A model generated the notes under the pieces. The model did no database searches and had not been told where the DNA came from. It was given only the letters and a program-made list of their open reading frames with translations. 64,000 bases of DNA. Source: Heliopora coerulea (Eukaryota; Cnidaria; Anthozoa; Scleralcyonacea; Helioporidae). Below, in pieces: positions 435 to 51,337 of the stretch (the first letter of the stretch is position 1; every line of letters begins with the position of its first letter). Position numbers and translations under genes: made by a program. The DNA is taken from contig JASJOG010000011.1 in NCBI GenBank assembly GCA_030142905.1, positions 1,984,001-2,048,000 on the forward strand, in the 5' to 3' direction.

Positions 435-2975
435 TTGAGTTGAATCAAAATTTAACTGCACTTCAGGAGACTTTCTTATCTGTTGTTCAAGACCATGTCA
501 TCTTACAGCTGATTGATTTCAAGAATATAACAAATCACCCATTGAAAAGACTTTCTTCAAGAAAACTGCTTGCCCAGTTATGGTTTAATGCCTCAACAGT
601 TGACTTGAACCTAAAGGAAATGCAAAGTTTGTGGTCTTTGCTTCAACAAGATGAATACTTTGTATTTAAACTCTTGCAGGACTTACGACACATTCCTCGT
701 ATTTATGGCACATGTGGGCAATTCTATGCTGTAGAGCAAGTAAGAACTCTAGATGAATACATTGGGCCAGTCCTACTTCACAAATCAGTAACCTGGAGGA
801 TACGTGTGAAGATTGCAATACAAATTATAGACCTTGTATGGGAATTGAGTTCAAAAACTGTTTATGGGTCATGGTATCATTGTGATATTCAACCCAGTAA
901 TTTTGGTTTGGATAGCAATGGTGTTGTCAAGTCAACTGATGTGGACCTAATGTTTACCAGTGAAAAGATTTTAGAAATGTTGAGCCAGCAAGATAACAAT
1001 TGCATTGAAGACAAGGATTGTGAATTCTTTGACTGTGCATCACAATGTAACCTCCAAAACAAGAAGTGCACCTCAAAACTGATCACAAACAACTTACAGG
1101 TAATGCTGGTTGTAATTGTTATGATAAACTGTCTTCTTTTCATTACTTTACTAAGTCAAAATTGCTTAGTCATATAAAAATAAAAAAATAAAGAAAAATA
1201 AAATATAGAAATATAAAAATAAATATAAAAATATAAAATCAAAAATAAAATAAAAATTTGGCATAAAAAAATTATAAAAAATATCATATAAAAATAAAAT
1301 TGATCTTTGTTTTAATTTAATTTTATTTGTTGTTGAATAATCCTTGAGACAAAGTCTCAGGGAATATTAAATAATATTTGTTGCACTTAAGGCAAATAAT
1401 TTAAAATAAAATAAAAATAAAATGAAATCCCAATAACCTCCTAGAACTGGCTGATATGGGGTTCCAAGAATAAAATAAAATTGATTTGATCAAATTGTGA
1501 TCTCATAGAAAAATTTTCCTGGGTAGGAGACAAATTGGGGGATTAGAAAGCGGTTATAGATTCTTGTCAGAATTGAATTAGTCATTTCAGAGCTTAAATG
1601 ATAGATTTTCACCTCAAATTTTTAGTATTTGTGGTATTTTTTCCATGATTTTCTCTTGGTGCAAAATGTGACACAAATTAACAAGGGGCACCAAACAGGG
1701 GCAAAATGTTTTTCACTGCATAAAAGTAGACTGATTCAATTATTTTTCCAAAAGATTAGCATTAAACCCATCATTTTGCTCCTTATCTCCAAATTTTTAA
1801 GGGGAAGGACCAAGGAGGGACAAACTGGATCAAGGGACACCAACACTGACCATGTGCCTGAGTGTCAAAACCTTCACAGTGCACTTGTTTTCACCCCAGT
1901 TACCCTGAGTATCATAATTTGTTTGGTACATGTATGTTTGTGTTGGATAGTTCTTTAGTCATCCTTTCAAAATTCTTTAACTTGTTGTAGTCAATCTGTG
2001 AAGGAGAACCAGACCACAATGTTATTAGTCAATGATAGTAACGAGCAGCAGCACACCTGGAATTTTTGTAAGAGAGGGTTAGAATGTGTCAAACTAGCCG
2101 CTGCTAAGGGGCTCAGAAGGCGTTGTCCTCCAGGAATAATTTATATTTTAAAGTCTGTACAATGACAATTCCAGTATATCAATTGACAGTTCTTTTACAG
2201 ATCACATTTGTAAGATGACTGAAAAATCATGGCATTTCACTATCATCTTTCAGAAGCATTTCACTATCATACCCTCTACATTGTTTGCTTTTACTTTGAA
2301 GTTATGTTTTATATTACTGTTTTGGTGGGCACAAATAGAAATCATTTTTGTGGCTGCTAAGGGAGGAGCTTAAGCCCCCAAGCCCCCCTTGGTTGTACTA
2401 CTGGTAACAAGTAAATAATGCATGATCAACAAAGTTTAACTCAGGCTGAAATAAAATCTAATATCAAGGGTGTTAATTAATACTTGCTAGTTTCTGATAG
2501 TGTTGAATATCTTAAGGTCTGATGTGGCAGTAAGTTCAGTGATTAAAAATGCAGTGCTTCAAACAGTGGAGTCGTTAAACTACAATTTGGGTGTTTTGGT
2601 ATTGAAAAATTTACCAAAAACAGAAGGTATCCTTAACACTGCACACCTACCCTGAAATTTGTTTGGGAATATTATTTCACATTTGCTTTAGAAACACTAA
2701 AAACAAAAATACATTAATTTTCTATTTTTACTTTGGAATTATACTTAAAATACTTTCTTCTATCATCACAGATAGTTTGCAGAGATCTGTTCCTGTCCAA
2801 ATGGATTGAAAATGGATTATTGTCTGATATCCCTTCCAAGAGCAAAATTAAATTTGATAAGATATTGAAGGAATGCTCTGCACCATCAAGTAGACCTTGG
2901 ACAAAACACAAATACAAAAGAATATTGGACACTCTTAATGGTTATCTGACAGAGGAGCTTAGAAGCTTCAACTGA
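435..2975 (+). CDS. DIPK1/FAM69-like divergent protein kinase, last two exons
   Basis: Two exons are visible: 435-1099 (acceptor acag, donor gtaatg) and 2772-2975 (acceptor cacag, stop tga). They join in phase, codon for codon, at 1099/2772. The first carries the divergent kinase lobe: WSLLQQDEYFVFKLLQ, then IPRIYGTCGQFYAVEQV, a catalytic-loop-like HCDIQPSNFG and a DFG-equivalent DVD. It then runs into the cysteine-rich tail typical of the family (CIEDKDCEFFDCASQC). The second exon gives the C-terminal helices. FAM69/DIPK1 proteins are ER or secretory-pathway, cysteine-rich putative kinases; the substrate is unknown. The N-terminal exons, with any signal anchor, lie upstream of the window. 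Which paralogue (A, B or C) it is cannot be told. The last exon is cut by the outer break of the large palindrome, but this left copy is intact. Confidence 0.87.
1100..2771 (+). other. Intron of the DIPK1-like gene
   Basis: A 1.67-kb intron between the two readable exons. It begins with an A/T low-complexity stretch (about 1175-1320, ataaaa-like units, and again 1395-1420). Stretches near 1640-1960 read like degenerate dispersed repeats. I see no convincing exon inside. Confidence 0.7.
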
Positions 2976-3254
2976 ATTGGATAGCTTAATAGCTTGACTT
3001 GTCTTTTTAACCCATGAAGGGGCAACAATCTGCTTTAGAACTTTATACTGGTTAAAAACCAAATGATTTTGTTCAGCATAGTGGGGCACCTTCCCCTTGG
3101 TGGGTTAACTGCAAACTTGGTTAACCTATATAAGAGGCAAGGGTGCATTTTGGAATTTTATTTTCCCTAACTCCTGATGGTTTTATTCTGAGTAACACCA
3201 GATGATTTTATGTGGCATAATGGGGCACCCCCCATATTGGGTTAATCTTGCAAT

Positions 3255-3260
3255 AATAAA
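3255..3260 (+). terminator. Possible polyadenylation signal (AATAAA) of the DIPK1-like gene
   Basis: AATAAA lies 280 bases after the stop codon. The 2976-3660 stretch around it holds short dispersed repeats (ttaaccc... blocks spaced by ggggcacc) that also occur elsewhere in the window. Cleavage position is inferred only. Confidence 0.35.
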
Positions 3261-3660
3261 ATCAAAATGTTTTTCTCACTGAGCATTTTGATTGTTGTTC
3301 ATTCACCCTTTCATTTCCAATGATGTTTATTCTGGGTAGTAATGGACAATTTTGTGCAATGAAGACAGGGATTTGGGGACAACAAGATTCAACCTTAATT
3401 TCCACCACCACCCTGCTGGTATAGTTTAGATACAATCTATCTAGTTACAGCCCAAATTCATTTGACAGTTGAGCAGGGCAACAAATTTAATTGTGCATGT
3501 TTAGTTGAACTAATTCTTGGACAAGAGAGGTCAGGTTTTACATTTCTATTCCAGCTAATGCCAAGTGATTTTACTCATCAGAGACAAGAATCTTATATGA
3601 AAATAAGCATATTAAAAGTTTGCTTTTTTATTGGAGCTGCTCTACAGGGGTTCTAAAGAA

Positions 3661-6600
3661 AATGTCTGCTGCCAGTGCCTCCAGAAATATTCCACATTGT
3701 GACATAATGAAGACCAAATACTAAAACTGTCATGTAATTATTTCTGTTAAGTGTCATTATTTCATTTAGAGTGCAAGTTGTTTAGCCCAATGATAAAAAG
3801 TGACAGACTTAATATATAACAAGCAACTACTGACTGTGTTCATACAGATGAATCACCAAATTATCTCTGAAGTAGGGCTAAATCCTTTGAAATATTGTAT
3901 ACAGTGACTTTCAAGGGGACTTCTGACCTGAAGCTTCTTTTGCTGACCAACCAAGCCTGTTTCACCAACCAACATAATTATTTTTACTTCTTCCCATCTG
4001 TTCATTTCACTGATTTACCTAAAAGTTAGAGTGTATGTCACACACAAAAGGTATACTTTGAGTCTCTGTGTGCGAAACAATGAAAATATCTGATAAAATC
4101 ATGTGAATCTCTTCATGCCAATGTTGTGGATGCACTATCAACCAGTGAGACCACATATCAACCCAGTAAGTTTCCATTGTGCATCAGGTTTCTGAACCAT
4201 CTTGAGGAGATGGAAAAGGCTACATATGATTGGGGCAATCCAGGGAGTTTAGGGAACTTAACCTATTAACTTTTAGATGCTGTTAAAAGGCTGGGACAAT
4301 GGTTCATATCTTGCTTAAATGAAATTATTTATGCAAGCTGTTGGTTTGGTCGAGATAACATATGTATACACGTCATATTATCACTAAAAATACCGGTATG
4401 AACATTTATTGGTTCGGTTCGTTTTGCACACCAAGATTTTCAGGTCAGGGTATTAATATCTGACTTCTATTTTGAAAGACTGCAACAACATAAATCTGGA
4501 ACAAATAAAAAATGAAAGAGACTGTGGATTATGTTTTTTTGTACTGGGTACACTGTACGGAGCAAGCCCAACGCATCCGTGTAAAATATTTTAAAAAGAA
4601 AGTCGAACAAAAAGGGATTTCCTGGTAAATATCGTATTCAACTCCCAACTCGCAACTTATTCCCTACCCAACTTGCCTTTGAATTGCTTATTTGGTATAA
4701 ATCACCAGATTTTAGAACTTGACAGATACGAGCTTGGCAATACGTTTGAGTATTTGTCTTCTGTTTTCAAACTGAAATCTCTGTGTTATTTTCTGTCATT
4801 ACAAGTAATTATTCCTATTTTGGCGTTTTCATAGACATGCTTCATGGCGGTCCAAAGAGCGTTGAGTTTCAAAATTAACAGTACGAAAATATTAATAAGC
4901 GGGTGCAGCTTATTAGTTAATACGAAAAAAACAAAACAAATAAAGTGTTTCAACGAATAAGTTGTCAATCTGTTCACGACGAAATTACAAGAGCTTCGGT
5001 TTGCCAACGTAAAGTACCCAGGTATGGAACTGTGAATGCTCGTCTAAAACCAACTGCTAATAATATTATTTGGCGAAGGTAGTCACAACTTGGAAAAAAA
5101 GACACGCTCAAATGAAGTAGTCATTGTAATGTTTTTCGTTGTAATTAGGAAGCAGAAGCGATTTTATGAATAAGCCTAAAAGCAAAGCGGCAAACTACAC
5201 GGTTCAGTGGTTTTTGCTTGCGCAAGGCGAAGATGTTTTTCAAAACAGCATTTCCCAAGGGAATAAGTTTCAATGTTTTTCCAATCAGAGGTGTCTTGAG
5301 AAGAGGTCAGCCAATACGAAGAGCCCGAGATAATATTCCACCAGTAATATTTCTTCATTTGAAAGTCCATTCCCCAAGGGTAACTTTTTCAACAGATTGG
5401 CAAGAGCACTTGGTCTCTTTTTCGTGCTTCTTCTCATGACACGTGGAGTGGTTTTATTTCGTAAGCTAAATGTTTTCTCTTAAAAGAAGCCCAAGCCCGT
5501 GCCAAATTATAACAACTGTCCAAGAACGCTGCCTCATTTGCGAAAACAAGACAACAAAAAGGTAAGCTGTAGTTCTAGAGCTTGAATGTTTGCGAAGGAA
5601 CGAATTGCTTGAGGGGGATGTTTTCCGGCTTCTCGAAAGTGTAAGGTCGTTCCCCTTCTCGTGCTAGAAAACGAAAGCCAAATTAGTTTTGGTTATGGCA
5701 AAAAACTTAATTCTAGACCATCTGGTTGAGGTAGGTCGCTTTTCGAACCGTTGGCTTTCAGAGCATTGAACGCATTTTAAAATAAAGCAACACGGTCGAG
5801 TCAGTGCATTCTTCTTGGTTCAGTGATTCGAAACGAAGGAGATTCTCAGGTGATTCTTAACAGGACATTCAATCCAATGGCGAATTGCGGACGTAGTTAT
5901 CAGGTTTGTTTGTTTTTTCGTTAGTCTCCATTCGAGATTAGAACGAATGCATTCAGTTTGAAATTAGCCTTGATATTTTAGGCAAAAGTGGGTCGTGACA
6001 ACTATAGGCTCATGGCCGAAGGAACCACACGTGAGGATTGTGCTACAGAAATGACCCAGACGATATTCTTGCCGTTGCCTTTTCATGAATTGTAATATAA
6101 AGTAATTCAAACAAATTCATAAAATTATTTTATAGTGCTTTGGTCGCCATTCTAGGAGATTTCCAGCTAATTCACCAATCGTTTTCATGTCATCTTGCAA
6201 CGGTTTAACACATTCGCACAGTACAACTCTTTCATCTTTTATGCAACAAAACTGGTACATATGGGTTAGTGAATACGTTTTCTAAAGAAAGTTTTACCAA
6301 GGAATCCCGGTTCTTTGCTTTTTGAGCGAAAACTCCGTGATTTTGAAGCGGAGAAATTTTTCCCTCCATTTTCTTTTTAAAAATCCAGCTCACAATATTC
6401 GCGGTCAAATTCTTGAAGATGCGTTAGTGCCCTCATCCCTGTCTCTGTTATCTTAAAGTTTTTTTAACTTAACTATAATTCTTGTTCAGTAAAGGAAAGA
6501 TTTGACAGAAAAGGGATTTCAGCGAACCTCGAAACGAGAAAAATAATTTATCTTTGAAAAAATCTGTAGACAAGGTAAAATGGATTGCGAGAAGAGCCCC

Positions 6601-7099
6601 CACATAACCGGAGTGAAATAAACATTCGCTGTTGGTTGACTCGAACGTACTCGTGAAAAATGCAAATTGAAGTAGAAAAAAATCTATTTTTCTCAGCACT
6701 AGGACGAACAGAAAAACAAACTTGTATTAGACTGAGAAGATGAATCAAAAGATTTCTATCTTTTCGAATCCACTCTTCCCACGTTCTTCATTTTTTTTTA
6801 TCAGTTCCAAGTATTTGGAAAAGGAAGAAACTTAACAGTAACTCGGGAATAAAAATGAAAACGTAATTGAAATAATTTAAATAAAATAATCCTAATCCTG
6901 GAACTCTTTTATTCATTTCTTGGCAAGGTAACTTGAAAAGGCCAAGTGGTAAATTAAACATTTCACTACACACGGAGAGGATCTTTTCCATTCAAGTCGT
7001 CCATTTCTCAACGCAGCCCAACAGGATCAACATTGGAACTGCACAAGCAGCAAGAAAACTGGATGTTTCGTCAGGTTGGAGTAGACGGATGTGGACTTC
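3661..7099. other. Non-coding part of the left arm
   Basis: No recognisable gene. The part from about 4560 to 6400 is less AT-rich and has more CpG than its surroundings, and carries GT-AG-like signals (for example a gtaagc donor near 5562 and a short ATG segment ending in a gtttgt donor near 5878-5904). It could hold a promoter or non-coding first exon. The short open frames present in both arms carry indels, so I do not call them genes. Confidence 0.4.
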
Positions 7100-7850
7100 A
7101 TAAATGCAGTTAGGTTATGGGCTTTTTCAAATGGTTCCTTACTGGCACCTACAGCCCATATAGGTTAAGGAAGGGAAAAACTAAAACAATGATTTCAGAA
7201 TCCTAAAACCTCGGCATTTTCTGTATTGTTGTCGTTTAGTTTTTCTCAAGGTGTTTCACAAGTACAAATCTAAGGTACTTGACACCATAGGTATGTAGAG
7301 TAGTTAAGAAAGGGAAGTTAAAACCAGTTAATAAATGAACAATAAAGGTATTTCAATGTTTGTTTAGAGCTGGATTTAATTTTCCTTGGACATTCGAAAT
7401 GTGCACATAATGCACTTTGGATTGTCCTTAAGTTAGGTGAAGAAGAAGCTCCCAACAGAGAAGGTACGTAAGGGTTGCGACAGGAAAATTGCGACGCCCC
7501 CATGATGGCATTTTTGTTAGTGCGCCCTAGTGTTAGGCTAACTAATAATAGTTATGGTAGTTAACATTAGTCTTTAGTGCAGTCTTTACAGAAACAAAGT
7601 TCTAGTTTAAGGAAGGAAAAGCTAGCGTCAATGGACCTGGATGGCAATGTTGTCCAAGTTCTATTGAGATTCTTGGCATTTCTTGTTAAAAGTCCACATC
7701 ATTTAACTCAAATTTATTCTGAAATAAAACAGTTTGAGAGGCTAATTTTACTTTGTAAAGTTTACAAAGAAAATTTAGAATTATTTCACATTGAGAACTT
7801 GATCATAGAAAACATCTGCAATGTTTTCTGTGATTATTTTTTGTGAAGGG
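7100..7850 (+). repeat. ~750-bp dispersed repeat, copy 1 (left arm, outer)
   Basis: This block starts with gttatgggctttttc and ends after an AT-rich stretch near 7850. Related copies lie at 15790-16520 (same strand) and, inverted, at 46320-47055 and 42020-42560. An 89-codon open frame at 7577-7846 is disrupted in the other copies and matches nothing I know, so the block is called a repeat, not a gene. Confidence 0.75.
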
Positions 7851-7924
7851 CAGCTCTCCAGCTGTGTCACTTCTCCAGCTTAAAGTCATTTAAGACCTTA
7901 ACGTTTTTTAATTCAGCATTACTA

Positions 7925-8150
7925 CAGTGGTGCAACTTTTCTCCGGCTCGACAACTTTTCTCCATCCACAACATTTAACAATTGTTCTCTGGTCTTATAA
8001 TAAATATTTTTTTACGGTTGTACAACTTATCACTGGCTTTTTGACTTATAATACCTCTGGCGTCACAACTTTTCTCCAGTGGTGCAACATTTTTCAGCTG
8101 GTAGCTGTACAAGTTTTCTTTAGCCTTTAGTTTTTCTTCAGCGTGCAATC
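7925..8150 (+). repeat. Degenerate 'acaacttttctccggc' minisatellite
   Basis: Imperfect units of about 19-30 bases built on caacttttctccggc. The same motif is found at 11150-11420, 16560-16660, 41740-41890 and 46035-46245, and in near-perfect form as the 19-bp array at 10742-11174. Confidence 0.7.
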
Positions 8151-9399
8151 TCTTGCCTGGCTTGGCATTATCTTTGTTGACATTTTGTCATCATGTGGAT
8201 GTTTGTTTTGTATTACACTGGCTTGTCCAATGGTACAGCATTCCATGACCCTGAAACAAGTGGTTTTTTAGTGATTTTGGTGTATTCTTCAAATTCCTGG
8301 TATGTGACATCAAGCATCGTGCAGACTGAATGACATCACATGAAAATATTGTCTCGATAAATGAAATTGCTTTGAATCTCTAGATGAAAGGATTTAACAG
8401 TTCTCTTTCATAAATTAATCATGATCACCTTTACAATGACATAAAGATTGTAATAGTATATTAATCATTTTCCTACAATAATTGTCATGTAAATATTATG
8501 TTCAGTATATTTTAGTATAAAATATTAATTTAATAGATAAAATGCATGTCCCAGGATGCTTTGCAATACTTGATCGATAGTCAAAAGTAAAAGGAATAAA
8601 CAAAAAATATAATGTATTGAAGAAAAAATTGTCCACAATACACTATCAATCAAGTGTTCTTGCATTAATATATGGTCCATGCAGTGAAAAATTACTTCTT
8701 GATGATAATTTGTGCAATATAAAACAATTAGTATAACCTTGCTTTGGGGGTAGACTACTTTTTTACAAACAAAAATGTGTAAACATAGAAAAAAGTTTTA
8801 GTTGTGGTAAATTTTTTTGCATTAATTCTGTATGAAAATTAATATGGAAATGTAAGAACTTAGTAATAAAGTAAAAATTTAGTCTACCTCAATCATAGCA
8901 GGTTTGCAGGAATCAGGCTTTGTTAGCCTGATTAAGTCAAATTACATTTTGAAGTTTCAGAGTCATACATTTGAAGACATAACTGTGAAAAGTTGCAAAA
9001 AATGCTACCCTAGGCCTTCCATACTGGAATCCCAAACAATTGGCAATTCAAATTGAACTTACAATGCAAATAACCACATATTCATTTCAAAGAAAACTTA
9101 TTAATATGCAGCTTCCCAACTGTTGCTGATCTTTTGATCTTATGGATGTTGACCCATTGTGGTCCAATTTACCTGTGTGGGTGTCCAACTCAACAAAATT
9201 TGCATGCACTACTTCTTGAGTTTCCTGGAAATTGAAAGCTTTGATTGGTGTTAAACCTAACATTGGTATGAATGGCCTTCACTCGAAACGTTAGAGAACT
9301 ACTCTCACGTTTTGGCAGTACTCAAACCTTTCTGATTATTTCACTTTGATTTCCACACTGCTTACGCTGCACTTCATTTTTATAACATTGGTATGCACT
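8151..9399. repeat. Arm segment, module copy A (non-coding)
   Basis: AT-rich, with no coding potential seen. It is repeated in more diverged form in the same orientation at about 11420-12590 (copy B), and inverted at about 44960-46030. The right-arm copy resembles A much more than B. Confidence 0.7.
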
Positions 9400-10735
9400 G
9401 CCAACTGAGCTACCTTTGTGTTGGGAGCTTAAATTATGTCCAGCCCCATAAGATTGGGACCCTCTGTTAACTGAGCAAGTTAGGAAGTTGGATTGGAACC
9501 TAACCCTGTGGCATTATGCTCTACTAACTGAGCTGGGAGCAAGTTGGAAACTTGCTTTGTTTTTCAAACCTACAATATTTTCTACTGATTGATTTTAATA
9601 CCTGCAAGTTAGGAACATGCATTGTTGTCCAACCCTACAACATTGTTATGCTAAACTGAGCTATGAGTAAGTTGGGAACTTGCATTAGGACGCAACCCTA
9701 CAACATAATTATGCTTAAGCAGTTTGATCAGAAGGTTGCGGGTTCGATCCCCGTCTGGGGCTCAGAAATCATTTTCTGAGTATCGAGCTTGAAGATCATT
9801 CATCTACCATAATTATGCTCACTAATTTAGCTACCTACAGGTTGAGAACTTGGATTGGGAACTAACCGACAACCTTATTGTGCTCTGCCAATTAAGCATC
9901 TTGTAAGTTGGGAACTTGCATTGGTATCAAACCCTCCAACACTATTATGTTCTACTAACTGGGTTACCTGCGATTTCAGAAGCTTGCATTTCTGTCCAAC
10001 GCTCCATTACGCTCTACTAACTGAGCTAGCAGCAAGTTGGAAAATTGTGCTAGAACCCCACCCAACAATATTACCTCGACCAACTGAGGTACCTGCAAGT
10101 CAAGAGCTTGCATTCAAAGAACATTAGAACATTATTTATGCTCTACTAATTTTACTAGTAGCAAGTTGGGAACTTGCACGGGGACGCAACTGAGTGACTT
10201 TGGTATTTTCTAGGAAATCAGGCGCATTCAAACGTGGAACTTTTCATGGGCCGAATCTAATGTTAATGAGCAAAATCCTTTGTTCAAACTGATTTGCATT
10301 TGATTAGGCATATGAAAAGTTCGACGTTTGAATTGGGCCTAAGTAACCTGCGAGTCGAGAATTACTTGCATTGGTATCCAACCCTACGACATAATGCTCT
10401 GCTAACTGAACGACCTGCAAGTTGGTAGTTTGCATTAGTACTGAACTGTGCTACATTCATATGCTCTACTAACCAAGCTATATCAGCAAGCCTGGAGCTG
10501 GAATTGGTGCTCCACGTAACAACGTTGAGCGATTGCTTGTTGGGAACTTGTATTGGTACCCAACCCACCAACAATGGTATGTTCTACCGATGGGCTACTT
10601 GCTAGTCGGGAACTTGCATTGGTATCCTGCCAAGCAACCTTGGTCAGCTAGTTCAACTCAGCGGTATGTAAGTTGGAAGCTTGCATTTGTGTTCATCCCA
10701 TCAACATTGGTATCTGAGCCACCTACATCCCCACT
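9400..10735 (-). repeat. Tandem array of ~62-68-bp tRNA-like units (array A)
   Basis: Read on the minus strand, each unit contains a tRNA-type D-arm/A-box (tagctcagttagtagagca), a short spacer, and a B-box-like ggttggacacc or ggtttgatacc. It is bounded by aacttgc at its start and gcaagtt at its end, which can pair as a 7-bp acceptor-like stem. No anticodon arm is present: only about 10 bases separate the D arm from the B-box-like part. Units are diverged, roughly 15-20 in this array. The inverted counterpart is at 43640-44960. Confidence 0.7.
9716..9807 (+). mobile_element. 5'-truncated tRNA-derived SINE inserted after the duplication
   Basis: A 92-bp insert with a B-box (ggttcgatcc) and the tail ctgagtatcgagcttgaaga, which is shared with the SINE at 59697-59896. 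It is flanked by a perfect 12-bp direct repeat, cataattatgct, at 9704-9715 and 9808-9819. The right arm has the empty site, with cataattatg once, near 44490. Confidence 0.88.
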
Positions 10736-10741
10736 AATTCT

Positions 10742-11174
10742 TTCTGGCTTTGCAACTTCTCTCCGGCTTTGCAACTTCTCTCCGGCTTTGCAACTTCTCT
10801 CCGGCTTTGCAACTTCTCTCCGGCTTTGCAACTTCTCTCCGGCTTTGCAACTTCTCTCCGGCTTTGCAACTTCTCTCCGGCTTTGCAACTTCTCTCCGGC
10901 TTTGCAACTTCTCTCCGGCTTTGCAACTTCTCTCCGGCTTTGCAACTTCTCTCCGGCTTTGCAACTTCTCTCCGGCTTTGCAACTTCTCTCCGGCTTTGC
11001 AACTTCTCTCCGGCTTTGCAACTTCTCTCCGGCTTTGCAACTTCTCTCCGGCTTTGCAACTTCTCTCCGGCTTTGCAACTTCTCTCCGGCTTTGCAACTT
11101 CTCTCCGGCTTTGCAACTTCTCTCCGGCTTTGCAACTTCTCTCCGGCTTTGCAACTTTTCTCCGGCTTTGCAAT
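10742..11174 (+). repeat. 19-bp minisatellite, about 22 near-perfect copies
   Basis: The unit is ctccggctttgcaacttct. Copies are almost identical, so the array is young or recently homogenised. Because 19 is not a multiple of 3 and the unit has no stop in any frame on either strand, long open frames run through it in several frames; these are artefacts. The right arm has only a few degenerate units at the matching place. Confidence 0.97.
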
Positions 11175-14335: not shown

Positions 14336-14340
14336 TTACG

Positions 14341-35740: not shown

Positions 35741-35749
35741 ACTCTGTCT

Positions 35750-35800: not shown

Positions 35801-35831
<31 letters not shown>

Positions 35832-36185: not shown

Positions 36186-36186
<1 letters not shown>

Positions 36187-36221
<35 letters not shown>

Positions 36222-36294: not shown

Positions 36295-36354
36295 ACGTCC
36301 ACTTCCTGATGGCGGATACTTACCGCGAGAGCCTGAGAAGCATTCGCGCTCTGG

Positions 36355-36562
36355 TTATATTATAATTCAACATGTCGTGTCACCTAAGTTTCAGGTTAGG
36401 GTTTGGGATTAGCTCTAATCCTAATCCTAACTCTAATCCTAATTCTAACTCTAACTCTAACTCTAACTCTAAGTCTAACTCTAATCTCAACTCTAATCTC
36501 AACTCTAATCCTCACCCTAACCTAAATCTTCGGTGAGAGGACATGTTGAATTATAATATAAC
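36355..36562. mobile_element. ~208-bp MITE with telomere-like interior
   Basis: The ends are inverted repeats of about 50 bases: gttatattataattcaacat reads inward from both sides. Inside is a (ctctaa/cctaac)n tract resembling a degenerate TTAGGG repeat. Half copies occur at 19278-19443. Confidence 0.75.
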
Positions 36563-39307: not shown

Positions 39308-39592
39308 TGATGTACTTTATACGCCCTTAAGCTGTTCTACTCCGAAAAACTTTCCGAGTCCCTGAATTATTAGCACTAAAATAAACAGATGACATATCGA
39401 GACTTGCAGACTGGCAGTACATATGTCTACCATCATACAAACCAGTACATAAATGTAATCTTCGCTCACCATCTTAGTCCATGTAGCTCAATGGTTAGAG
39501 CATTTCACCGGCGATCAGAAGGTTACGGGTTCGATTCCTGTCAGGGACTCAAAGTTTTTCTCAGTAGAATAGCTTGAGAGCGTATAAAGTAC
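39308..39592. mobile_element. Foldback element containing a tRNA-like head, at the inner edge of the right arm
   Basis: The ends gtactttatacgc and gcgtataaagtac face each other, and about 65 bases inward are complementary (gagtccctga / tcagggactc). The + strand at 39478-39550 is tRNA-like: gtagctcaatggttagagca, then ggttcgattcctg, with 6 of 7 acceptor pairs. The anticodon loop is poor and lacks U33. I read it as a SINE pair in inverted orientation, not a tRNA gene. Confidence 0.65.
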
Positions 39593-41364
39593 ATAACATA
39601 CATAAAATTACTGATCCTCATCAAATCCCATTATTCTCTCTCTCCATTATACTATTGATTTCAGCCATGAGCTATCTAATCCTTGTACCTGAGTAAAACG
39701 AGGACGGTAATTTTTTTTGGGAGGGAATTTACAAAGCGTGATCCTGAAGGTACTAAATCAGCACACTACAATGTTAAAAACCATTAAGTTAACTCACTGC
39801 ATCATTAAAATATTGCAGCCTGCGACTTTTAGCATGTTTAGAATCATAGGCATCGCAAAGGGGGCCAAGGGGGGCATGGGCTCCCCAAACATAAATTGGA
39901 GGTATTTCATACCAGTATATTGAACCAGTTGAACAAATTATTGCCTCGTGTTCTGGATCTCGGCAACATTCGTTTCTAAAACCAAGGTTTTCTTCGTGCG
40001 ATATCGAACAAACACTCGTCGCCATTTACCCGATGATCCCAAAGGATATTACTTAGTGGTGAGCATTGATTTCATCATTAAAAAGCTGTAAAACTTCAGG
40101 GTATGCCCCAATTTTGTCCCAACCCTCAAAAAAACAAAAAAATTAACCCTAGCAACGCCACTGTTCAGAATTACTGCTAATGATTTCCGCAAACAAAAAG
40201 GATCGTACCTGTTCTTCGTTGAGATTTGGATTGAATATTTCCTCTAAATGAAACCGTTGTTATAAATGTCACTTGCACGCAACAATAAATCCGCCCAATA
40301 AGCCCAATACAAGGCCAAACAGCAGTCAGAAAGACAATGTACGACAATGTATGACAACACAGCAAAGACGTCAAACTAAGTGTTTAGGAACTTTGTCAAA
40401 CTATTCTGCTCACCAAACACGTGCATTCGTGCAACACATTACAAGTCAAATTTCAGTTTTTCACTTGATTCAAACAAAGTAAGTTTAACTCACGGTCATT
40501 TTTCGTGCATTCCATGCATCATGGTGACTTCTTAGCTGAAATAACTCTGAATGATGAAGCAAGCTAAGACATGCAGACTGAATAAACACCGAGACGCTGC
40601 CCCCAAGCCATGTGTAGAGACGTCTGAGATTACCGAACTGCTTGGGGCTGCCAATGACCGAAGAAAGCCGAGGTTTCCGAAATAAATCAAATTCCAAGTA
40701 ACATCATCTTTTAAACCCAAGATATGAGTCAAGCTTACTTTTTAAAAGTAATGTCTGAACTTTATTGCAAGCCATTCTTGCTTGGATTTCAACTGAACAC
40801 GACCAAATTAGCTGCCGTTTGGAAAGTGAATAAAATTATAACGCTTCGGTGGTTTAGATGCATAATTTAAATATGTAAATTTAGCGCAAGGTTTGTTCAA
40901 TTCAATAGAAAGATCAGTACTAACAGATTCTTTAGAAAGCCAGTCAGACGCGGTTACAGTAGGTTTAGTAAACGAAAACTTGATTCATTGACTTTCGTAC
41001 TCAACAATAGAAAGGGGAGTGAAAATCATTGATACAATGTGGAGAGAGAATAATTTGGGATTTGACTAGGATCAGTGATTATAAAAGATAATTATTTGGG
41101 CCAAACGGCATAAAAGCGAATTGCATGATGCAGGGCGACTGATTTAAATTTCGATTTTCGATCAAAATACCTCATGGCTACAGCAAGAAGAGATGAAAAG
41201 CAATATGCCAGTTTTTATACCGTGAAATCAATGGTCTGATGATGGAAATCGGATCACAAGCAAATATTGTCCTTTTTCATTTTTCCACTTAGGTATTTTT
41301 CCAGGCTTTTCTTAAAATTTGTCGTTCTTCCGTCGACTCTTCCATCGTCTTTCTCTCACATCCA

Positions 41365-41885
41365 AGATTCTGGTGTAAGTAACGAGCAAATTATTTTTAA
41401 CATTTAACTTATAGCCAACCCGGAGAGACGGAGAGAAAAAAGGACGGCCGGACAAGGAGACTGTAATTGAAGATAGATAAATTGACAGATAGAAAAAACA
41501 AAGCAAAAAAAAACCAAACCACTAATACACCAAAGCGAGGAACTTAATTCTTTTTTACAAATTGCATATTTATCTTCACAGAAATCACAAACGACAACAC
41601 GCCAAAGGCAATCGTTTTTCAAGTAATTTTCAAGACGACTGTGTAGAAGAGTTGTATTACAATTTGGATCAGGACATCTGATGTCCTTGGGAGAAGCGTC
41701 ACAGAGCCGGAGAAGCGTCGCAGAGCCCAAGAGGAACTGCAGTACAGGAAAAAAGTAGCATTACGGCAGAAATTTCGCGAAGCCGAAGAAGGGTTACATT
41801 GCCGGAGAAATCTCACGTTGTCGGAGAAATGTGAGGGACCCGGACAAAAACTGTAGCACCTTAAAATAGCTGCATAGCCGGAGAA
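41365..41885 (-). other. Right-arm-only segment (TRAF fragment plus 'gccggagaaa' units)
   Basis: Relative to the left arm at about 16660-16670, the right arm has about 500 extra bases. They contain a TRAF zinc-finger exon remnant (41550-41685) and, at 41740-41890, several units of the minisatellite motif (gccggagaaa on the + strand). It is either an insertion on the right or a deletion on the left. Confidence 0.75.
41550..41685 (-). pseudogene. TRAF-type zinc-finger exon remnant
   Basis: After a cccaag acceptor at 41686-41691 the minus strand reads IRCPDPNCNTTLLHSR, LENYLKNDCLWRVVVCDFC and EDKYAICKK. This is the zf-TRAF pattern (CPxxxC, LENHLxxDC, WRxVxCxFC). The usual zinc-ligand histidine in LENH is Tyr here, and no GT donor follows, so it looks dead. 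The TRAF MATH exon at 37386-38031 lies downstream on the same strand in the expected order, 3.5 kb away. They may be parts of one broken gene. Confidence 0.85.
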
Positions 41886-42019
41886 ATTCAACACCGGCTG
41901 ACAAAATTTTCAAAGCAGAATAATGGAAAAAAATGTTATAAAGTCTTAAAAAGCCTGAAGCTGGAAAACTTACTCATGAAAGCCAAAGAATAATCATAAA
42001 AAAATCTCAAAGCATTATA

Positions 42020-42560
42020 GATGTTTTCTATGATTATGTTCGCAATACAAAATAAAACTAAATGTTGTTTGTAAACTTTACAAAGTAAAATTAGCCTTTC
42101 AAACATATTTCAGAATAAATTAAAGTTAATTGATTTGCACTTTCAACAAGAAATGCCAAGAATGTCAACAGAACTTGGGCAACTTTAACATCCAGGTCCA
42201 CTGACTTTGGCTTTCTTTCACTAAACTAGAACTTTGTTTCTGTAAAGACTGCACTAAAGACTAATGTTAACTACCATAACTATTGTTAATTAACCTAACA
42301 CTAGGGCGTACTAACAAAAATGCCATCCTGGGGGCGTCGCAATTTTCCTGTCGCAACCCTTACGTACGTTCTTTGTTGGAAGCTTCTTCTTCACCTAAAC
42401 TTAAGGACATTCCAAAATGCATTACATACACTCAGAATGTCTTGGGAAAATTAAATCCAACTCTAAACAAACACTGAAATACCTTTATGATTCATTTATT
42501 AGTTGGGTTTTAATTTCCCTTACCTGGCTATTCCACAAACCTATGGTGTCAAATACATTA
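42020..42560 (-). repeat. ~750-bp dispersed repeat, copy 3 (right arm, inner)
   Basis: Inverted partner of 15790-16520, shortened at its 5' side. It shares the block gggggcgtcgcaattttcct with copy 4 at 46320-47055. Confidence 0.72.
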
Positions 42561-43639
42561 TACACCATCTCCAGAACAACTGGCTTGGACGTAAAAGCTG
42601 GTTGTGGATGACAAATTAAGATGCTCAACACCAACTTTCCTTGAATTACAGGTTGCTTAATTCTTTTCCATTACCTAAATATAATTAAAAAACATCAAAA
42701 TGAATCAATAGATCACTACAATGGTTAATCTTATTTGACTGTTCAAGGTTACAAACCCTTACATTGTTGCTGGATCATTACAGCACTGTAATGGTGTTTC
42801 CTTGTTCGTTGTAACGTTGCATCTATAGATGACAGCATGGTTTTGAATGCAATTTGGAGAAAAACATCTGCAAGTGACTTTTTCAACCACTGTCAATCAT
42901 GCCACAGAACAATGACTATTGTTCTACAGTACGATGGCACAGTGGCCAGTCCTGTGTCAACATAGCATGACTCTGAAGAATGAGTGCTATTTGAGGTCTT
43001 AAAAAGCTCAAAATTCATTATTTTACCAAATTACACAAGAAACCATGTTATTATCAATTAGTAATATCCATGAAGAAAGTAATACAGTGCTGAAAAAGTA
43101 ATTCAGTACAAATTACTGATATCTTTTTCTGGACAGTGTTATCATCAAGTTGCTTCCCTAACAGCCAGTCAGAATTGATTAATTCTTTTAGGTGTTATGA
43201 GTTATATAAAGAGTTGTTTAATCTGTACCATATGTTGCCCCCCCCTACATTTACAAAGACCAAATCAAAGACCCCCTTGAAATGTCAGAGTAATGTAATT
43301 GTACCGAAGCAATGTAGAACAGACTCTGAGCATCTCAATCTAAAATTTATTAGGACAGAAAACTGTGAGAGCCAATAGTATCAACCTAAAATACATCGAG
43401 CAGTTTCAGTTTTCCTGACGTTATTTTTATTTTCCCTTTCCCTACATTATTTAAGAATCTTCTAAGTCATTAAAACACTTACACTTCGGGAAGACTTTCG
43501 TTGATCAGACAGGCGCAGTATTTCTCAAGACCACTCGAAAACTAACTTTCCAGGGTAAGTTATCCACTGAATCAAAGCACCAAGCTCTCATAAGCCATGT
43601 TGGGTTGGACACCAAAGAAAACTCGGTATTACTTGCATG

Positions 43640-44960
43640 TAGCTCGTACATTAGTGGGGATGTAGGTGGCTCAGATACCAACGTTGATGGGATGAACACG
43701 ATTGTATTGTAAGCTTCCAACTTACATACAGCTGAGTTGACAAAGCACACCAAGGTTGCGTGGTAGGATACCAATGCAAGCTCCTGACTAGCAAGTAGCC
43801 CATCAGGAGGACATACCAGTGTGGGTGGGTTGGGTACCAGTACGAGTTCCCAACAAGCAATCGCTCAACGTTGTTGTGTGGAGCACCAATGCAAGCTCCA
43901 GACTTGCTGATAGCTTGGTTAGTAGAGCATATGAATGTAGCACAGTTCGCAACCAATGCAAACTACTAACTTGCAGGTCGTTCGGTTAGCAGAGCATTAC
44001 GTCGTAGGGTTGAATACCAATGCAAGTAATTCTCTACTTGCAGGTTGCTTAGGCCCAGTTCAAACGTCGAACTTTTCATGTGCCGAATCAAATGCAAATC
44101 AGTTTGAAAGTCACTCAGTTGCGTCCCAGTGGAAGTTCTCAACTTGCTACTAGCAAAATTAGTAGTGCATAAATAATGTTGTAGGGTTGGACTAGAATGC
44201 AAGCTCCTGACTTGCAAGTACCTCAGTTGGTCGAGGTAACATTGTGGGGTTGGGTTCTAGCACAATTTTCCAACTTGCTGCTAGCTCAGTTAGTAGAGCG
44301 TAATGGAGTGTTGGACACAAATGCAAGCTTCCGAACTTGCAGGTAGCCCAGTTAGTAGAACATGATTGTGTTGCAGGGTTTGATACCAATGCAAGTTCCT
44401 AACTTGCAGGATGCTCAATTAGCAGAGCACAATAATGTTGTCAGTTGGTTCCCAATCCAAGTTGACAACCTCCGGGTAGCTAAATTAGAAAGCATAATTA
44501 TGTTGTAGGGTTGGGTCCTAATGCAAGTTCCCAACTTACTCATAGCTCAGTTTAGCATGACAGTGTTGTAGGGTTGGACATGAATGCAAGTTCCTCACTT
44601 ACAGGTAGCATTATGTTGTAGGGTTGGACAACAATGCATGTTCCTAACTAACTTGCAGGTATTAAAATCAGTCAGTAGAGAATATTGTAGGTTTGAAAAA
44701 CAAAGCAAGTTTCCAACTTGCTCCCAGCTCAATTAGTAGAGCATAATGCCACAGGGTTAGGTCCCAATCCAACTTCCTATCTTGCTCAATTAACAGAGGG
44801 TCCCAGTTTTGTGAGGCTGGACATAATTTAAGCTCCCAACACAAAGGTAGCTCAGTAGGCAGTGCATACCAATGTTAGGTTTAACACCAATCAAAGCTTT
44901 CAATTTCCAGGAAACTCAAGAAGTAGTGCATGCAAATTTTGTTGAGTTGGACACCCACAT
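43640..44960 (+). repeat. Tandem array of ~62-68-bp tRNA-like units (array C)
   Basis: Inverted copy of array A, readable on the + strand. Typical unit: ttgcaggtagctcagttagt, agagca, about 10 bases, gggttggacacc, aatgcaagttcccaac. One unit near 44340-44400 has ggtttgatacc, one base off the Pol III B-box core. D-stem pairing gctc/gagc is kept in many units, as is the gcaagtt/aacttgc complementarity. The 3' end of the array is fused to the end of array B (near 43630-43660). Confidence 0.72.
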
Positions 44961-46034
44961 AGGTAAATTGGACCACAATGGGTCAACACCCATAAGATTG
45001 AAAGATCAGCAACAGTGGGGAAGCTGCATATTAATAAGTTTTCTTTGAAATGAATATGTGGTTATTTGCATTGTAAGTTCAATTTGAATTGCCAATTGTT
45101 TGGGATTCCAGTATGGAAGGCCTAGGGTAGCATTTTTTGCAACTTTTCACAGTTAGGTCTTCAAACGTATGACTCTGAAACTTCAAAATGCAATTTGACT
45201 TAATCAGGCTAACAAAGCCTGATTCCTGCAAACCTGCTATGATTGAGGTAGACCAAATTTTTACTTTATTACTAAGTTCTTACTCTTCCATATTAATTTT
45301 CATACAGAATTAATGCAAAAGAATTTACCACAACTAAAACTTTTTCTATGTTTACACATTTTTTTTTGTAAAAAAATAGTCTACCCCCAAAGCAAGGTTA
45401 TACTAATTGTTTTATATTGCACAAATTACTATCAAGAAGTAATTTTTCACTGCATGACCATAAATTAATGCAAGAACACTTGATTGATAGTGTATTGTGG
45501 ACAATTTTTTCTTCTATACATTATATTTTTTGTTTATTCCTTTTACTTTTGACTATCAATCAAGTATTGCAAAGCATCCTGGGACATGCATTTTATCTAT
45601 TAAATTAATATTTTATACTAAAATATACTGAGCATAATACTTACGGTACATGACAATTATCATAGGAAAATGATTAATACTATTACAATCTTTATAATGT
45701 CATTGTAAAGGTGATCATGACTAATTTATGAAAGAGAACTGTTAAATCCTTTCATCTAGTGATTCAAAGATATTTCATTTATTGAGTCAATATTTTCATG
45801 TGATATCATTCAGTCTGTACGATGCTTGATGTCACATACCAGGAATTTGAAGAATACACAACAATCACTAAAAAGACCACTTGTTTCAGGGTCATGAAAT
45901 GCTGTACCATTGGACAAGCCAGTGTAATACAAAACAAACATCCACATGATGACAAAATGTCAACAAACATAATGCCAAGCCAGGCAAGAGATTGTAAACT
46001 GAAGAAAAACTAAAAGCCAAGGAAAACTTGTACA

Positions 46035-46245
46035 GCTACCAGCTGGAAAATGTTGCACCACTGAAGAAAAGTTGTGAAGCCAGAGGCATTATAAGTCAAA
46101 AAGCCAGAGGTAACTTGTACAACCATAAAAAAATGTTTATTATAAGACCAGAGAACAATTGTTAAATGTCGTGAGCCGGAGTAAAGTTGTTGGGCCGGAG
46201 TAAAGTTGTTGGGCCGGAGTAAAGTTGCACTGCTGGAGTAATGCT
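46035..46245 (-). repeat. Short 'ctccggc' minisatellite, right arm
   Basis: Three near-identical ggccggagtaaagttgttg units at 46172-46225, with degenerate neighbours. Counterpart of 7925-8150. Confidence 0.8.
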
Positions 46246-46319
46246 GAATTAAAAAACGTTATGAGGTCTTAAATGACTTTAAGCTGGAGAAGTGACACAG
46301 CTGGAGAGCTGCCCTTCAC

Positions 46320-47055
46320 AAAAAATAATCACAGAAAACGTTGCAGATGTTTTCTATGATTAAGTTCTCAATGTGAAATAAATCTAAATTTTCTTTGTAA
46401 ACTTTACAAAGTAAAATTAGCCTCTCAAACTCTTTTATTTCAGAATAAATTTAAGTTAAATGATGTGGACTTTTAACAAGAAATGCCAAGAATCTCAATA
46501 GAACTTGGACAACATTGCCATCCAGGTCCATTGACGCTAGCTTTTCCTTCCCTAAACTAGAACTTTGTTTCTGTAAAGACTGCACTAAAGACTAATGTTA
46601 ACTACCATAACTATTATTAGTTAGCCTAACACTAGGGCGCACTAACAAAAATGGTATCATGGGGGCGTCGCAATTTTCCTGTCGCAACCCTTACGTACCT
46701 TGTCTGTTGGGAGCTTCTTCTTCACCTAACTTAAGGACAATCCAAAGTGCATTATGTGCACATTTCGAATGTCCTAGGAAAATTAAATCCAGCTCTAAAC
46801 AAACATTGAAATACCTTTATTGTTCATTTATTAACTGGTTTTAACTTCCCTTTCTTAACTACTCTACATACCTATGGTGTCAAGTATCTTAGATTTGTAC
46901 TTGTGAAACACCTTGAGAAAAACTAAACGACAACAATACAGAAAATGCCAAGATTTTAGGATTCTGAAATCATTGTTTTAGTTTTTCCCTTAACCTATGT
47001 GGGCTGTAGGTGCCAGTAAGGAACCATTTGAAAAAGCCCATAACCTAACTGCATT
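46320..47055 (-). repeat. ~750-bp dispersed repeat, copy 4 (right arm, outer)
   Basis: Inverted partner of 7100-7850. The stretch 46659-46844 differs from 7318-7503 by very few bases. Confidence 0.8.
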
Positions 47056-50000
47056 TATGAAGTCCACATCTCTACTCCAACCTGACGAAACATCCAGTTT
47101 TCTTGCTGCTTGTGCAGTTCCAATGTTGATCCTGTTGGGTTGCGTTGAGAAATGGACGACTTGAATGGAAAAGATCCTCTCCGTGTGTAGTGAAATGTTT
47201 AATTTACCACTTGGCCTTTTCAAATTACCTTGCCAAGAAATGAATAAAGGAGTTCTAGGATTAGGATTATTTTATTTAAATTATTTCAATTACGTTTTCA
47301 TTTTTTTTCCCGAGTTACTGTTAAGTTTCTTCCTTTTCCAAATACTTGGAACTGATAAAAAAAAATGAAGAACGTGGGAAGAGTGGATTCGAAAAGATAG
47401 AAATGTTTTGATTCATCTTCTCAGTCAAATACAAGTCTGTTTTTTGTTCGTCCTAGTGCTGAGAAAAATAGATTTTTTTCTGCTTCGATTTGCATTTTTA
47501 ACGAGTACGTTCGAGTCAACCAACAGCGAAGGTTTATTTCACCCCCCGGCTATGTAGGGGCTCTTCCCACAATCCATTTTACCTTGTCTACAGATTTTTT
47601 CAAAGATAAATTATTTTTTCTCATTTCAAGGTTTGCTGAAATCCCTTTTCTGTGAAATCTTTCCTTTCTTGAATAAGAATTATAGTTAAGTTAAGAAAAC
47701 TTTAAGATTTCAGAGACAGGAAGAGGGCACTAACGCGTCTTCAAGAATTTAACTGCGAATATCGTGAGCTGGATTCTTAAAAAGAAAATGGAGGGAAAAA
47801 TTTCTCCTCTTCAAAATCACGGAGTTTTCGCTCATAAAGCAAAGAACTGGAATTCCTTGGTAAAACTTTCTTTGGAAAACGTATTCACTAACCCAAATGT
47901 ATCAGTTCTGTTGCATAAAACATAAACGAAAGAGTTGTACTGTGCGAATGTGTTAAACCGTTGCAAGATGATGTAAAAACGATTGATGAATTAGCTGGAA
48001 ATCTCCTAGAATGGCGACCAAAGCACTATAAAATAATAATTTTATGAATTTGTTTGAATTAGTTTATATCACAATTCATGAAAAGAAAACGGCAAGAATA
48101 TCGTCTAGGTCATTTCTGTAGCACAATCCTTACGTGTGGTTCCTTCGGCCATGAGCCTATAGTTGTCACGACCCACTTTTGCCTAAAATATCAAGGCTAA
48201 TTTCAAACTGAATACATTCGTTCTAATCTCGAATGGAGACCAACGAAAAAACAAACCTGATAACTACGTTCGCAATTCGCCATTGGATTGAATGTCCTGT
48301 TAAGAATCACCTGAGAATCTCCGTTTCGAATCACTGAACCAAGAAGAATAATGCACTCGACCGTGTTGCTTTATTTTAAAATGCGTTCAATGCTCTGAAA
48401 GCCAACGGTTCGAAAAGCGACCTACCTCAACCAGATGGTCTAGAATTAAGTTTGTTGCCATAACCAAAACTAATTTGGCTTTCGTTTTCTAGCACGAGAG
48501 GGAACGACCTTACACTTTGGAGAAGCCGGAAAACATCCCTCTCAAGGAATTTGTTCCTTCGCAAACATTCAAGCTCTAGAACTACAGTTTACCTTTTTGT
48601 TGTCTTGTTTTCGCAACTGAGGCAGCGTTCTTGGACAGTTGTTATAATTTGGCACGGGCTTGGGTTTCTTTTAAGAGAAAACATTTAGCTTATGAACTAA
48701 AACCACTCCACGTGTCATGAGAAGTAGCACGAAAAAGAGACAATCCGTTAAAGTTACCCTTGGGGAATGGACTTTCAAATGAAGAAATATTACTCGTGGA
48801 ATATTATCTCGGGCTCTTCGTATTGGCTGATCTCTTTTCGAGGCGCCTCTGATTGGAAAAACATTATTGAAACTTATTCCCTTGGGAAATGCTGTTTTTA
48901 AAAACATCTTCGCCCTGCGCGAACAAACCCGGCACTGAACCGTGTAGTTTGTCGCTTTGCTCTTGGGCTTATTCGTAAAATCGCTTCTGCTTCCTAATTA
49001 CAACGAAAAACATTAGAATGACTACTTCATTTGAGCGTGTCTTTTTTTCCAAGTTATGACTACCTTCGCCAAATAATATTATTAGCAGCTGGTTTTAGAC
49101 GAGCATTCACAGTTCCATACCTGGGTACTTTACGTTGGCAAACCGAAGCTCTTGTAATTTCGTCGTGAACAGATTGACAACTTATTGGTTGAAACACTTT
49201 ATTTGTTTTGTTTTTTCATATTAATTAATAAGCCGCACCCACCTAATATTTTCGTACTGTTAATTTTGAAACTTAACACTATTTGGACCGCCAAGAAGCA
49301 TGTCTATGAAAATGCCAAAATAGGAATAATTACTTGTAATGACAGAAAATAACACAGAGATTTCGGTTTGAAAACAGAAGACAAATACTCAAACGTATTG
49401 CCAAGCTCGTATCTGTCAAGTTCTAAAATCTGGTGATTTATACCAAATAAGCAATTCAAAGGCAAGTTGGATAGGGAATAAGTTGCGAGTTGGGAGTTGA
49501 ATACGATATTTACCAGGAAATCCCTTTTTGTTCGACTTTCTTTTTAAAAAATTTTACACGGATGCGTTGGGCTTGGAACGTACAGTGTACCCAGTACAAA
49601 AAAACTTAATCCACAGTCTCTTTCGTTGTTATTTGTTCCAGCTTTATGGTGTCCCAGTCTTTCAAAATAGAAGTCAGATATTAATACTCTGACCTAAAAA
49701 TTTTGGTGTGCAAAACGAACCGAACCAATAAATGTTCATACTGGTATTTTTAGTGATAATATGACGTATATACATATGTTATCTCGACCAAACCAACAGC
49801 TTTCACGAATAATTTCATTTAAGCAAGATATGAACCAATGTCCCAGCCTTTTAACAGCATCTGAAAGCTAATTGGTTAAGTTCCCTAAGCCTTCTGGATT
49901 GCCCCAATCATATGTAGCCCTTTCCATCTCCTTAATATGGTTCAGAAACCTGATGCACAATGGAAACTTACAGGGTTGATATGTAGTCTCACTGGTTGAT

Positions 50001-51180
50001 AGTGCATCCACGACATTGGCATGAAGAGATTCGCATAATTTTATCAGATATTTTCATTGTTTCACCCAAGGAGACTCAGAGTATACCTTTTGGGTGTGAC
50101 ATACACTACAACTTTTTGGTAAATCAGTGAAATGAACAGTTCGTAGGAAATTCCCTGGCTTCATGGGAAGAAGTAAAAATAATTGTGTCGGTTGGTGAAA
50201 CAGGCTTGGTTGGTCAGCAAAAGAAGCTTCAGGTCAGAAGTTCCCTTGAAAGTCACTGTATACAATGTTTCAAAGGATTTAGTCCTACTTCAGAGATAAT
50301 TTGGTGATTCATCTGGATGAACAAGGTCAGTAGTTGCTTGTTATATATTAAGTCTGTTGGTTTTTATCATTGGGCTAAACAACTTGCACTCTAAATGAAA
50401 TAATAACATTTAACAGAAATAATCACATGACAGTTTTAGTATTTGGTCTTCATTGTCACAACATGGAGTATTTCTGGAGGCATTGGCAGCAGGCATTTTC
50501 TTTAGAACCCCTGTGGAGCAGCTCCAATAAGAAAGCAAACTTTTAATATGCTTATTTTCATATAAGATTTTTGTCTCTGACGAGTAAAATCACTTGGCAT
50601 TATAGCTGGAATAGAAATGTAAAACCTGACCCTCGTTGTCTAAGAATTAGTTCAACTAAACATGCACAATTAAATTTGTTGCCCTGCTCAACTGTCAGAT
50701 GAATTTGGGCTGTAACTGGATAGATTGTATCAAAACTATATCAGTATGGTGGTGGTGGAAATTAAGGTTGAATCCTCTTGTCCCCAAATTCCTTTCTTCA
50801 TTTCACAAAATTACCCAATAATACCCAGAATAAACATCACTGGAAATGAAAGGGTGAACAAACAACAATCAAAATGCCCAGAGAGAAAAACGTTTTTATT
50901 TTATTATTGCAAGATTAACCTAATATGGGGGGTGCCCCACTCTGCCAAATAAAATAATTTGGTGTTAGAATAAAATAATCAGGAGTTAGGGAAAATAAAA
51001 TTCCAAAGTGCACCCTTGCCTTTTATATAGGTTAACCAAGTTTGCAGTTAACCCACCACGGGGAAGGTGCCCCACTATGCTGAACAAAATCATTTGGCTT
51101 TTGGCCTGTATAAAGTTCTAAAGTACAATGTTGCCCCTTCATGGGTTAAAAAGACAAGTCAAGCTATTAAGCTATCCAAT

Positions 51181-51337
51181 TCAGATGAAGCTTCTAAGCT
51201 CCTCTGTCAGATAACCATTAAGAGTGTCAAATATTCTGTTGTACTTGTGTTTTGTCAAAGGTCTACTTAATGGTGCAGCGCATTCCTTCAATATCTTACC
51301 AAATTTAATTTTGCTCTTGAACAGGATATCAGACAAT
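51181..51337 (-). pseudogene. Truncated duplicate of the last DIPK1 exon
   Basis: The minus strand reproduces the DIPK1 exon from its 48th base to the stop (51181-51183). The frame is still open (KILKECAAPLSRP, NGYLTEELRSF) with about 11 base changes from 2819-2975. Homology ends abruptly at 51337, where satellite-like aatcccagg follows. With no acceptor and no kinase lobe it cannot be functional. It shows that the duplication was copied from the left side. Confidence 0.92.

Follow-up and report, generated by a model that had tools for sequence, protein, structure and literature searches.

In Drosophila, staggered breaks have been proposed for inversions with duplicated ends (PMC5080602, PMC3355041, PMC7584159). 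The inversions of Atlantic herring are flanked by inverted duplications of 8-60 kb with 85-99% identity, ascribed to ectopic recombination (PMC11499932), and a flip/flop region of Saccharomyces comprises 24 kb between 4-kb inverted repeats (PMC9731477). Here we describe a locus of the anthozoan Heliopora coerulea (GenBank assembly GCA_030142905.1, contig JASJOG010000011.1, positions 1,984,001 to 2,048,000 of the forward strand; this full 64,000-nt stretch is referred to as the window), in which two long inverted arms enclose a spacer of 20.3 kb. The paired arms are an aged inverted duplication, which is well supported. Judging from a single sequence, we lean slightly towards reading the structure as what remains of a local inversion, in which the spacer was turned and the breakpoint duplicated. 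Such an inversion is a known kind of chromosome change and no new kind of structure.

With the described Drosophila inversions (mojavensis, PMC3355041; D. subobscura O4 and O8, PMC5080602) the locus has in common inverted duplicated DNA at both ends of the segment, as well as partial gene copies of which one is kept and one is decaying. Copies made unequal by deletions are a further shared trait (7.1 kb versus 2.7 kb in the 2h case; PMC3355041). Unlike the Drosophila duplications, which among those sized in PMC3355041 reach 7.1 kb, those of Heliopora extend up to 16.5 kb around a 20-kb segment; moreover, the spacer here contains satellite DNA. The herring inversions are similar to our case in duplication size and in copy identity of 85-99% (PMC11499932). 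In the Saccharomyces region, inverted repeats likewise surround a segment on the 20-kb scale, and repeat homogenisation and re-inversion are described, as considered below for Heliopora; however, the yeast repeats are almost identical and both orientations have been observed (PMC9731477), whereas in Heliopora identity ranges from 88 to 98% among the blocks and the spacer is known in one orientation. Mammal and willow sex-chromosome palindromes, as described, share with the locus long inverted arms and (here only suggested) gene conversion between them. Unlike in those palindromes, the Heliopora arms are not homogenised to >99%, and a complete duplicated gene was not detected in either.

A preliminary description of the window had called the structure a palindrome and considered it unusual in animal autosomes. 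The former term is an overstatement, as the arms are unequal, not homogenised overall and 20 kb apart. The latter claim is unsupported: inversion breakpoints with inverted duplications one to tens of kb long have been published (PMC11499932, PMC5080602, PMC3355041), and the chromosome class of the contig is not established. No genome-wide survey of autosomal inverted duplications was found among the literature matches listed, nor a similar case among the best-matching titles on octocoral genome inversions and on cnidarian inverted duplications or inversion breakpoints. The locus would add a cnidarian-like member to a class that is described, in the reports cited, mainly from flies and fish.

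Extent and divergence of the arms

Self-BLAST of the window, with arm boundaries taken from the block ends, distinguished the two arms:

2819..19273, plus strand: left arm of the inverted duplication
39586..51337, minus strand: right arm, collinear with the left one in inverted orientation

Matched blocks cover 14,366 bp of the 16,455-bp left arm (paralogous modules counted in) and 10,760 bp of the 11,752-bp right arm. An inverted duplicate is present at both ends of the segment, copy number being counted within the window only, and the window contains no N letters. Five blocks are inverted and collinear; their limits in the block alignment are given with the identities, which count substitutions only, and with the self-BLAST limits where these are different:

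2819-9278 and 51337-44857: outer block, 95.2% identity (309 of 6410 sites differ)
9279-10738 and 44856-43650: block C, 88.6% identity (136 of 1196 sites differ); self-BLAST 9383-10738 and 44877-43650, in pieces
15551-16655 and 42766-41874: block A′, 87.9% identity (108 of 890 sites differ); self-BLAST 15573-16655 and 42744-41874, two pieces
16656-17680 and 41370-40341: block E, 97.5% identity (26 of 1025 sites differ); self-BLAST 16659-17680 and 41367-40341
18502-19273 and 40342-39586: block F, 92.2% identity (58 of 746 sites differ)

The top inverted block scores 9844 bits. As a control, the letters of the whole window were shuffled 20 times (by single bases, not dinucleotides); 19 of these sequences had no inverted match at E ≤ 1e-3 and the remaining one a match of 42.8 bits. 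The preliminary description had reported that 2.8-19.3 kb reappears inverted, in conserved order, at 39.6-51.3 kb, with arms of 12-16 kb and a 20-kb spacer, and the blocks bear this out. It had also regarded the arms as a real, aged inverted duplication. We concur, because four of the five blocks have diverged by 4.8-12.1%, insertions and deletions are specific to each arm, and unlike genes lie at the two ends. When the five blocks are pooled, 637 of the 10,267 aligned sites differ, which is short of the >99% identity throughout that is characteristic of homogenised sex-chromosome-type palindromes.

Gene fragments at the arm ends

The left arm starts inside the last exon of a FAM69/DIPK-like gene, and a broken copy of this exon forms the outer end of the right arm:

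392..1174, plus strand: open stretch with a kinase exon of the FAM69/DIPK-like gene (PF12260, E 2.1e-40; relatives at 55-65%; tblastn)
2769..2975, plus strand: last exon of this gene, containing the left-arm boundary 2819 (tblastn of the related protein P0003, 69% over 68 amino acids (aa), E 2e-27; translation to the stop codon)
51181..51336, minus strand: truncated, decayed copy of the last exon at the outer end of the right arm (tblastn, P0003 aa 345-394 only; codon comparison)
51340..51629 (start approximate, by eye), plus strand: about two 141-bp satellite units joined to the broken exon copy (51359-51629 directly matches the array at 21266-24244; junction sequence)
53515..54829, minus strand: two CDT1 exons outside the right arm (PF08839, E 1.3e-26 and 4e-14)

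Both FAM69/DIPK-like exons in the window are open. In tblastn, the match of P0003 at 2769-2972 extends over the arm boundary. Nothing in the window matches aa 1-103 of P0003, so what was found is confined to the 3′ portion of the gene. A protein search gave six matches, of which the sole named one was from the octocoral Dendronephthya gigantea (55%); another was the window's own protein. Over 52 codons, stop included, the right exon copy shows nine nonsynonymous codon differences from the left one and a single synonymous difference, and the stop codon is kept in both. A proline and a tryptophan common to the left copy and both outgroup proteins are missing from the right copy, and two further sites (D with N; S with T) have a left residue closer to that of the outgroups. 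Thus the left copy fits the two outgroups better at 4 of the 9 nonsynonymous sites and the right copy at one (L/F), the other four being split, uninformative or represented by one outgroup residue. This case suggests that a gene can survive a breakpoint in its last exon if the break duplicates that exon. At the outer junction about 3 bp of sequence is shared (by eye), and beyond the satellite units the right side continues to CDT1 on the minus strand. The exon at 53.5 kb had been taken by eye for a glycosyltransferase, which was ruled out by its Pfam assignment to CDT1.

Pieces of a second, TRAF5-like gene extend across the inner end of the right arm:

41545..41688, minus strand: zinc-finger exon of the right arm, within a segment that the left arm lacks (tblastn, P0007 aa 127-174, 60%, E 7.6e-19; zf-TRAF E 6.5e-4, below the curated cut-off)
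39076..39114, minus strand: possible further zinc-finger piece in the spacer (13 aa at 61.5%; E 0.15 when the whole protein is the query and 0.003 for a 61-aa part of it)
37422..38031, minus strand: frameshifted MATH-domain exon in the spacer (TRAF-mep_MATH E 1.1e-15; PDB TRAF2 E 1.6e-15; P0007 aa 226-439)

These pieces are ordered on the minus strand from the right arm (41.69-41.55 kb) via the weak match at 39.1 kb to the spacer (38.03-37.42 kb). Since P0007 aa 226-439 align to 38031-37422 across three frames, leaving a gap of ten residues (tblastn), the gene is dead. In or beside the left arm no TRAF piece was detected at E < 1 (tblastn). Blocks E and F of the right arm fall between the TRAF pieces and are therefore taken to be an intron of the TRAF5-like gene; in the left arm these blocks stop at 19273, adjoining a repeat. 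One of two protein matches was named, and came from D. gigantea (62%).

Small elements were noted at both inner junctions. An element at 36342-36561, with inverted ends and a telomere-like, CTAACC-rich centre, has partial copies at the left inner junction (19274-19440). Apparent pieces of tRNA-derived short interspersed elements (SINEs) are located at 39460-39577, 59831-59712, 9726-9792 and 57916-58035, and one SINE-like copy abuts the inner end of the right arm, within a small inverted repeat.

Proposed spacer inversion and alternative origins

Both arms seem to retain the ancestral state at one of their ends and to be broken at the opposite one: ancestral sequence continues outward from the left arm and inward from the right arm. 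The ancestral continuations are found crosswise: the FAM69 last exon at the left outer end and the TRAF pieces across the right inner end. Such crosswise gene ends are expected of an inversion with a duplicated breakpoint and would not be produced by plain copy-and-paste, in which the pasted neighbouring copy is broken at both ends and the source at neither. Gene pieces at repeat ends can in this way point to inversion over plain duplication from one sequence, without an outgroup. This use of the gene ends goes beyond the preliminary description.

The ancestral order would have been FAM69/DIPK, a single arm with the TRAF5-like zinc-finger part, the rest of the TRAF gene with the remaining spacer, and CDT1. 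The spacer would have been turned round, leaving the arm on both of its sides in opposite orientation. This may have occurred through staggered breaks about 16 kb apart at one segment end, which were filled in and rejoined, so that inversion and duplication would be one event; alternatively, an inverted arm copy may have arisen first and a crossover between the arms may then have flipped the spacer. The two routes give an identical present map and are not separable here. Later, the truncated gene copies would have decayed, the left arm would have acquired an element with terminal inverted repeats (TIRs) and a minisatellite while losing the TRAF exon, and at least one exchange of sequence between the arms would have taken place, in block E.

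Several points weigh against such an inversion. It is read from one sequence. The RING part of the TRAF5-like protein (P0007 aa 1-126) has no match in the window at E < 1 (tblastn), laxer settings giving chance-level matches, so the gene would have been partial already or would have lost its 5′ part. At the left inner junction the repeat 19274-19338 looks like half of an element with a fuller copy at 36342-36561, and the other half is not found at 51338; a clean two-break inversion would thus need a small extra loss. Block divergence is unequal (2.5-12.1%), for which a single event suffices only in combination with conversion, local differences in rate or misaligned repeat modules. Furthermore, the FAM69 and TRAF5-like matches of Dendronephthya, possible orthologues, were located on separate long contigs of 4.04 and 2.87 Mb and do not demonstrate ancestral linkage. 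Finally, a secondary deletion of the left TRAF end would also account for the asymmetry.

Such a loss is part of the best-surviving alternative: a segmental duplication simply copied and pasted in inverted orientation (e.g. through template switching), without any inversion of the spacer. The left TRAF continuation would then have disappeared later by deletion and by insertion of repeats and satellite DNA. We hold this to be possible, although well short of an even chance. The left arm is indeed without the ~0.5-kb TRAF-exon segment kept in the right arm and has insertions of its own, the sequence beside 19273 is repetitive, and the ~3 bp shared by eye at the outer junction fit this origin as well. 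However, a second event would be required exactly at the inner end of the arm, and it would be a coincidence that the right copy, and not the source, retains the inner gene.

A fold-back inverted duplication, in which the spacer would form the loop (disomic spacer), is disfavoured and in our view very unlikely. Inverted copies, a single-copy spacer and short junction homology are seen in human fold-back cases, whose spacers are described as mostly a few kb and up to 70 kb (PMC3907307). Under this model, as we understand it, the spacer should continue from the original arm, and the TRAF gene thus from the left one, but it continues from the right arm, which is also the one carrying the broken FAM69 exon. 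Moreover, the human products described are terminal deletions, translocations or rings (PMC3907307), unlike the internal site here. Only a later flip of the spacer could rescue a fold-back origin.

To an assembly artefact, either a read folded back on itself or a head-to-head join of two haplotigs, we give a similarly small chance. Animal assemblies can contain uncollapsed haplotypes. Against this, four of the five blocks combine the divergence given above with insertions and deletions, no N is present, and on the right side the FAM69 exon gives way to satellite DNA, beyond which lies a different gene, CDT1; a simple misjoin does not make such a breakpoint. Two insertions, in opposite orientation, of one large transposable element were discarded as scarcely credible, for although the arms contain a TIR element, SINE pieces and minisatellites, the arm boundary lies inside the last exon of a host gene, the right arm holds a TRAF exon, and none of six open arm stretches scanned against Pfam (0/6) matches an element family.

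Uneven divergence and possible exchange between the arms

Identity between the arms varies beyond what one clock allows. Divergence is heterogeneous among 21 sub-windows of the outer block (chi-square 83.9, 20 degrees of freedom), and compared with this block it differs in A′ (Fisher p 2e-15), E (6e-4) and F (1e-3). Dating of the duplication by a single clock was abandoned because of this heterogeneity. Block E contains a tract of low divergence:

16656..17680, plus strand: block E of the left arm, with a candidate gene-conversion tract at 16792-17558 (block alignment, difference counts)
40341..41370, minus strand: block E of the right arm (self-BLAST, block alignment)

In the tract, the limits of which were chosen after the differences were seen, the arms differ at 4 of 767 sites, compared with 5 of 133 and 14 of 122 in its two flanks. 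The longest identical run in the five blocks is 416 bp, against a shuffled maximum of 233 (2000 shuffles, 10,267 sites, 637 differences), whereas the longest run of the outer block (140) is ordinary relative to the null median of 124, though the rate varies among its sub-windows. The sequence of the tract suggests gene conversion between the arms; purifying selection, or two copies collapsed in the assembly, would be other causes. If the spacer was inverted, the conversion in block E perhaps coincided with the crossover that flipped it. It is unlikely, though conceivable, that the arms are a working flip-flop pair which still recombines, with 16792-17558 as the last exchange and the spacer segregating in both orientations. 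Such a system would give FAM69 and CDT1 alternating neighbours and would be a cnidarian counterpart of the yeast flip/flop region.

Block A (7000-7900 and 46251-47071) is about 98% identical between the arms, and its paralogue A′ is about 85% like it. Further conversion, or constraint, is possible in block A.

Arm-specific differences

Three features are confined to the left arm:

10738..11173, plus strand: expansion of a 19-bp minisatellite (22.9 copies, 99% matches; tandem-repeat result)
11306..14687, plus strand: second B-C module, about 72% like the first and holding a degenerate ~62-66-bp tandem array (self-BLAST)
17683..18496, plus strand: insertion with 44-bp TIRs, absent at the matching site of the right arm (self-BLAST, sequences)

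The TIRs of the insertion occupy 17683-17726 and 18453-18496, and a 271-bp near-perfect palindrome (97.4%) is nested within the element at 18182-18452. The tail of C in the right arm is 73% like the second B-C module of the left arm. As the likeness of this module to its neighbour is ~72%, compared with ~5% divergence of the outer block, it was not made after the duplication as a later tandem copy, but either predates the arms or has an outside origin. The tandem copy listed in the preliminary description cannot serve as a datable event following the duplication. The right arm alone has ~0.5 kb between A′ and E, composed of decayed 19-bp units followed by the TRAF exon. By eye, 19-bp units resembling these come after A in the left as well as the right arm, so this difference is interpreted as a deletion in the left arm.

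The degenerate ~62-66-bp tandem array is found at 9184-10686, 12581-14314 and 43708-44951, its 56 units in the window being divided between the left arm (39) and the right arm (17). A box-A-like stretch seen by eye raised the idea that the C modules are a tRNA array, which was rejected, as Rfam gave no tRNA match in 9000-15000; at E ≤ 1 the one match in this region was to a microRNA family (E 0.54).

Satellites and other repeats

Two satellite arrays were distinguished in the spacer:

21266..24244, plus strand: 141-bp satellite array (self-BLAST, tandem-repeat result)
24560..31763, plus strand: 168-bp satellite array, 42.8 copies (tandem-repeat result)

In the 168-bp array, BLAST self-identity at some multiples of the unit (e.g. 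1845 bp, 90%) exceeds that at one unit (85%), a hint of higher-order repeats; an ungapped check gave no clear answer. A satellite pattern had no matches in viral contigs, among which records from the animal's own genome may be left out. At 35398-35703 (minus strand) an open stretch, with no supporting Pfam match, resembles by eye the tail of a reverse transcriptase of a retrotransposon lacking long terminal repeats (non-LTR).

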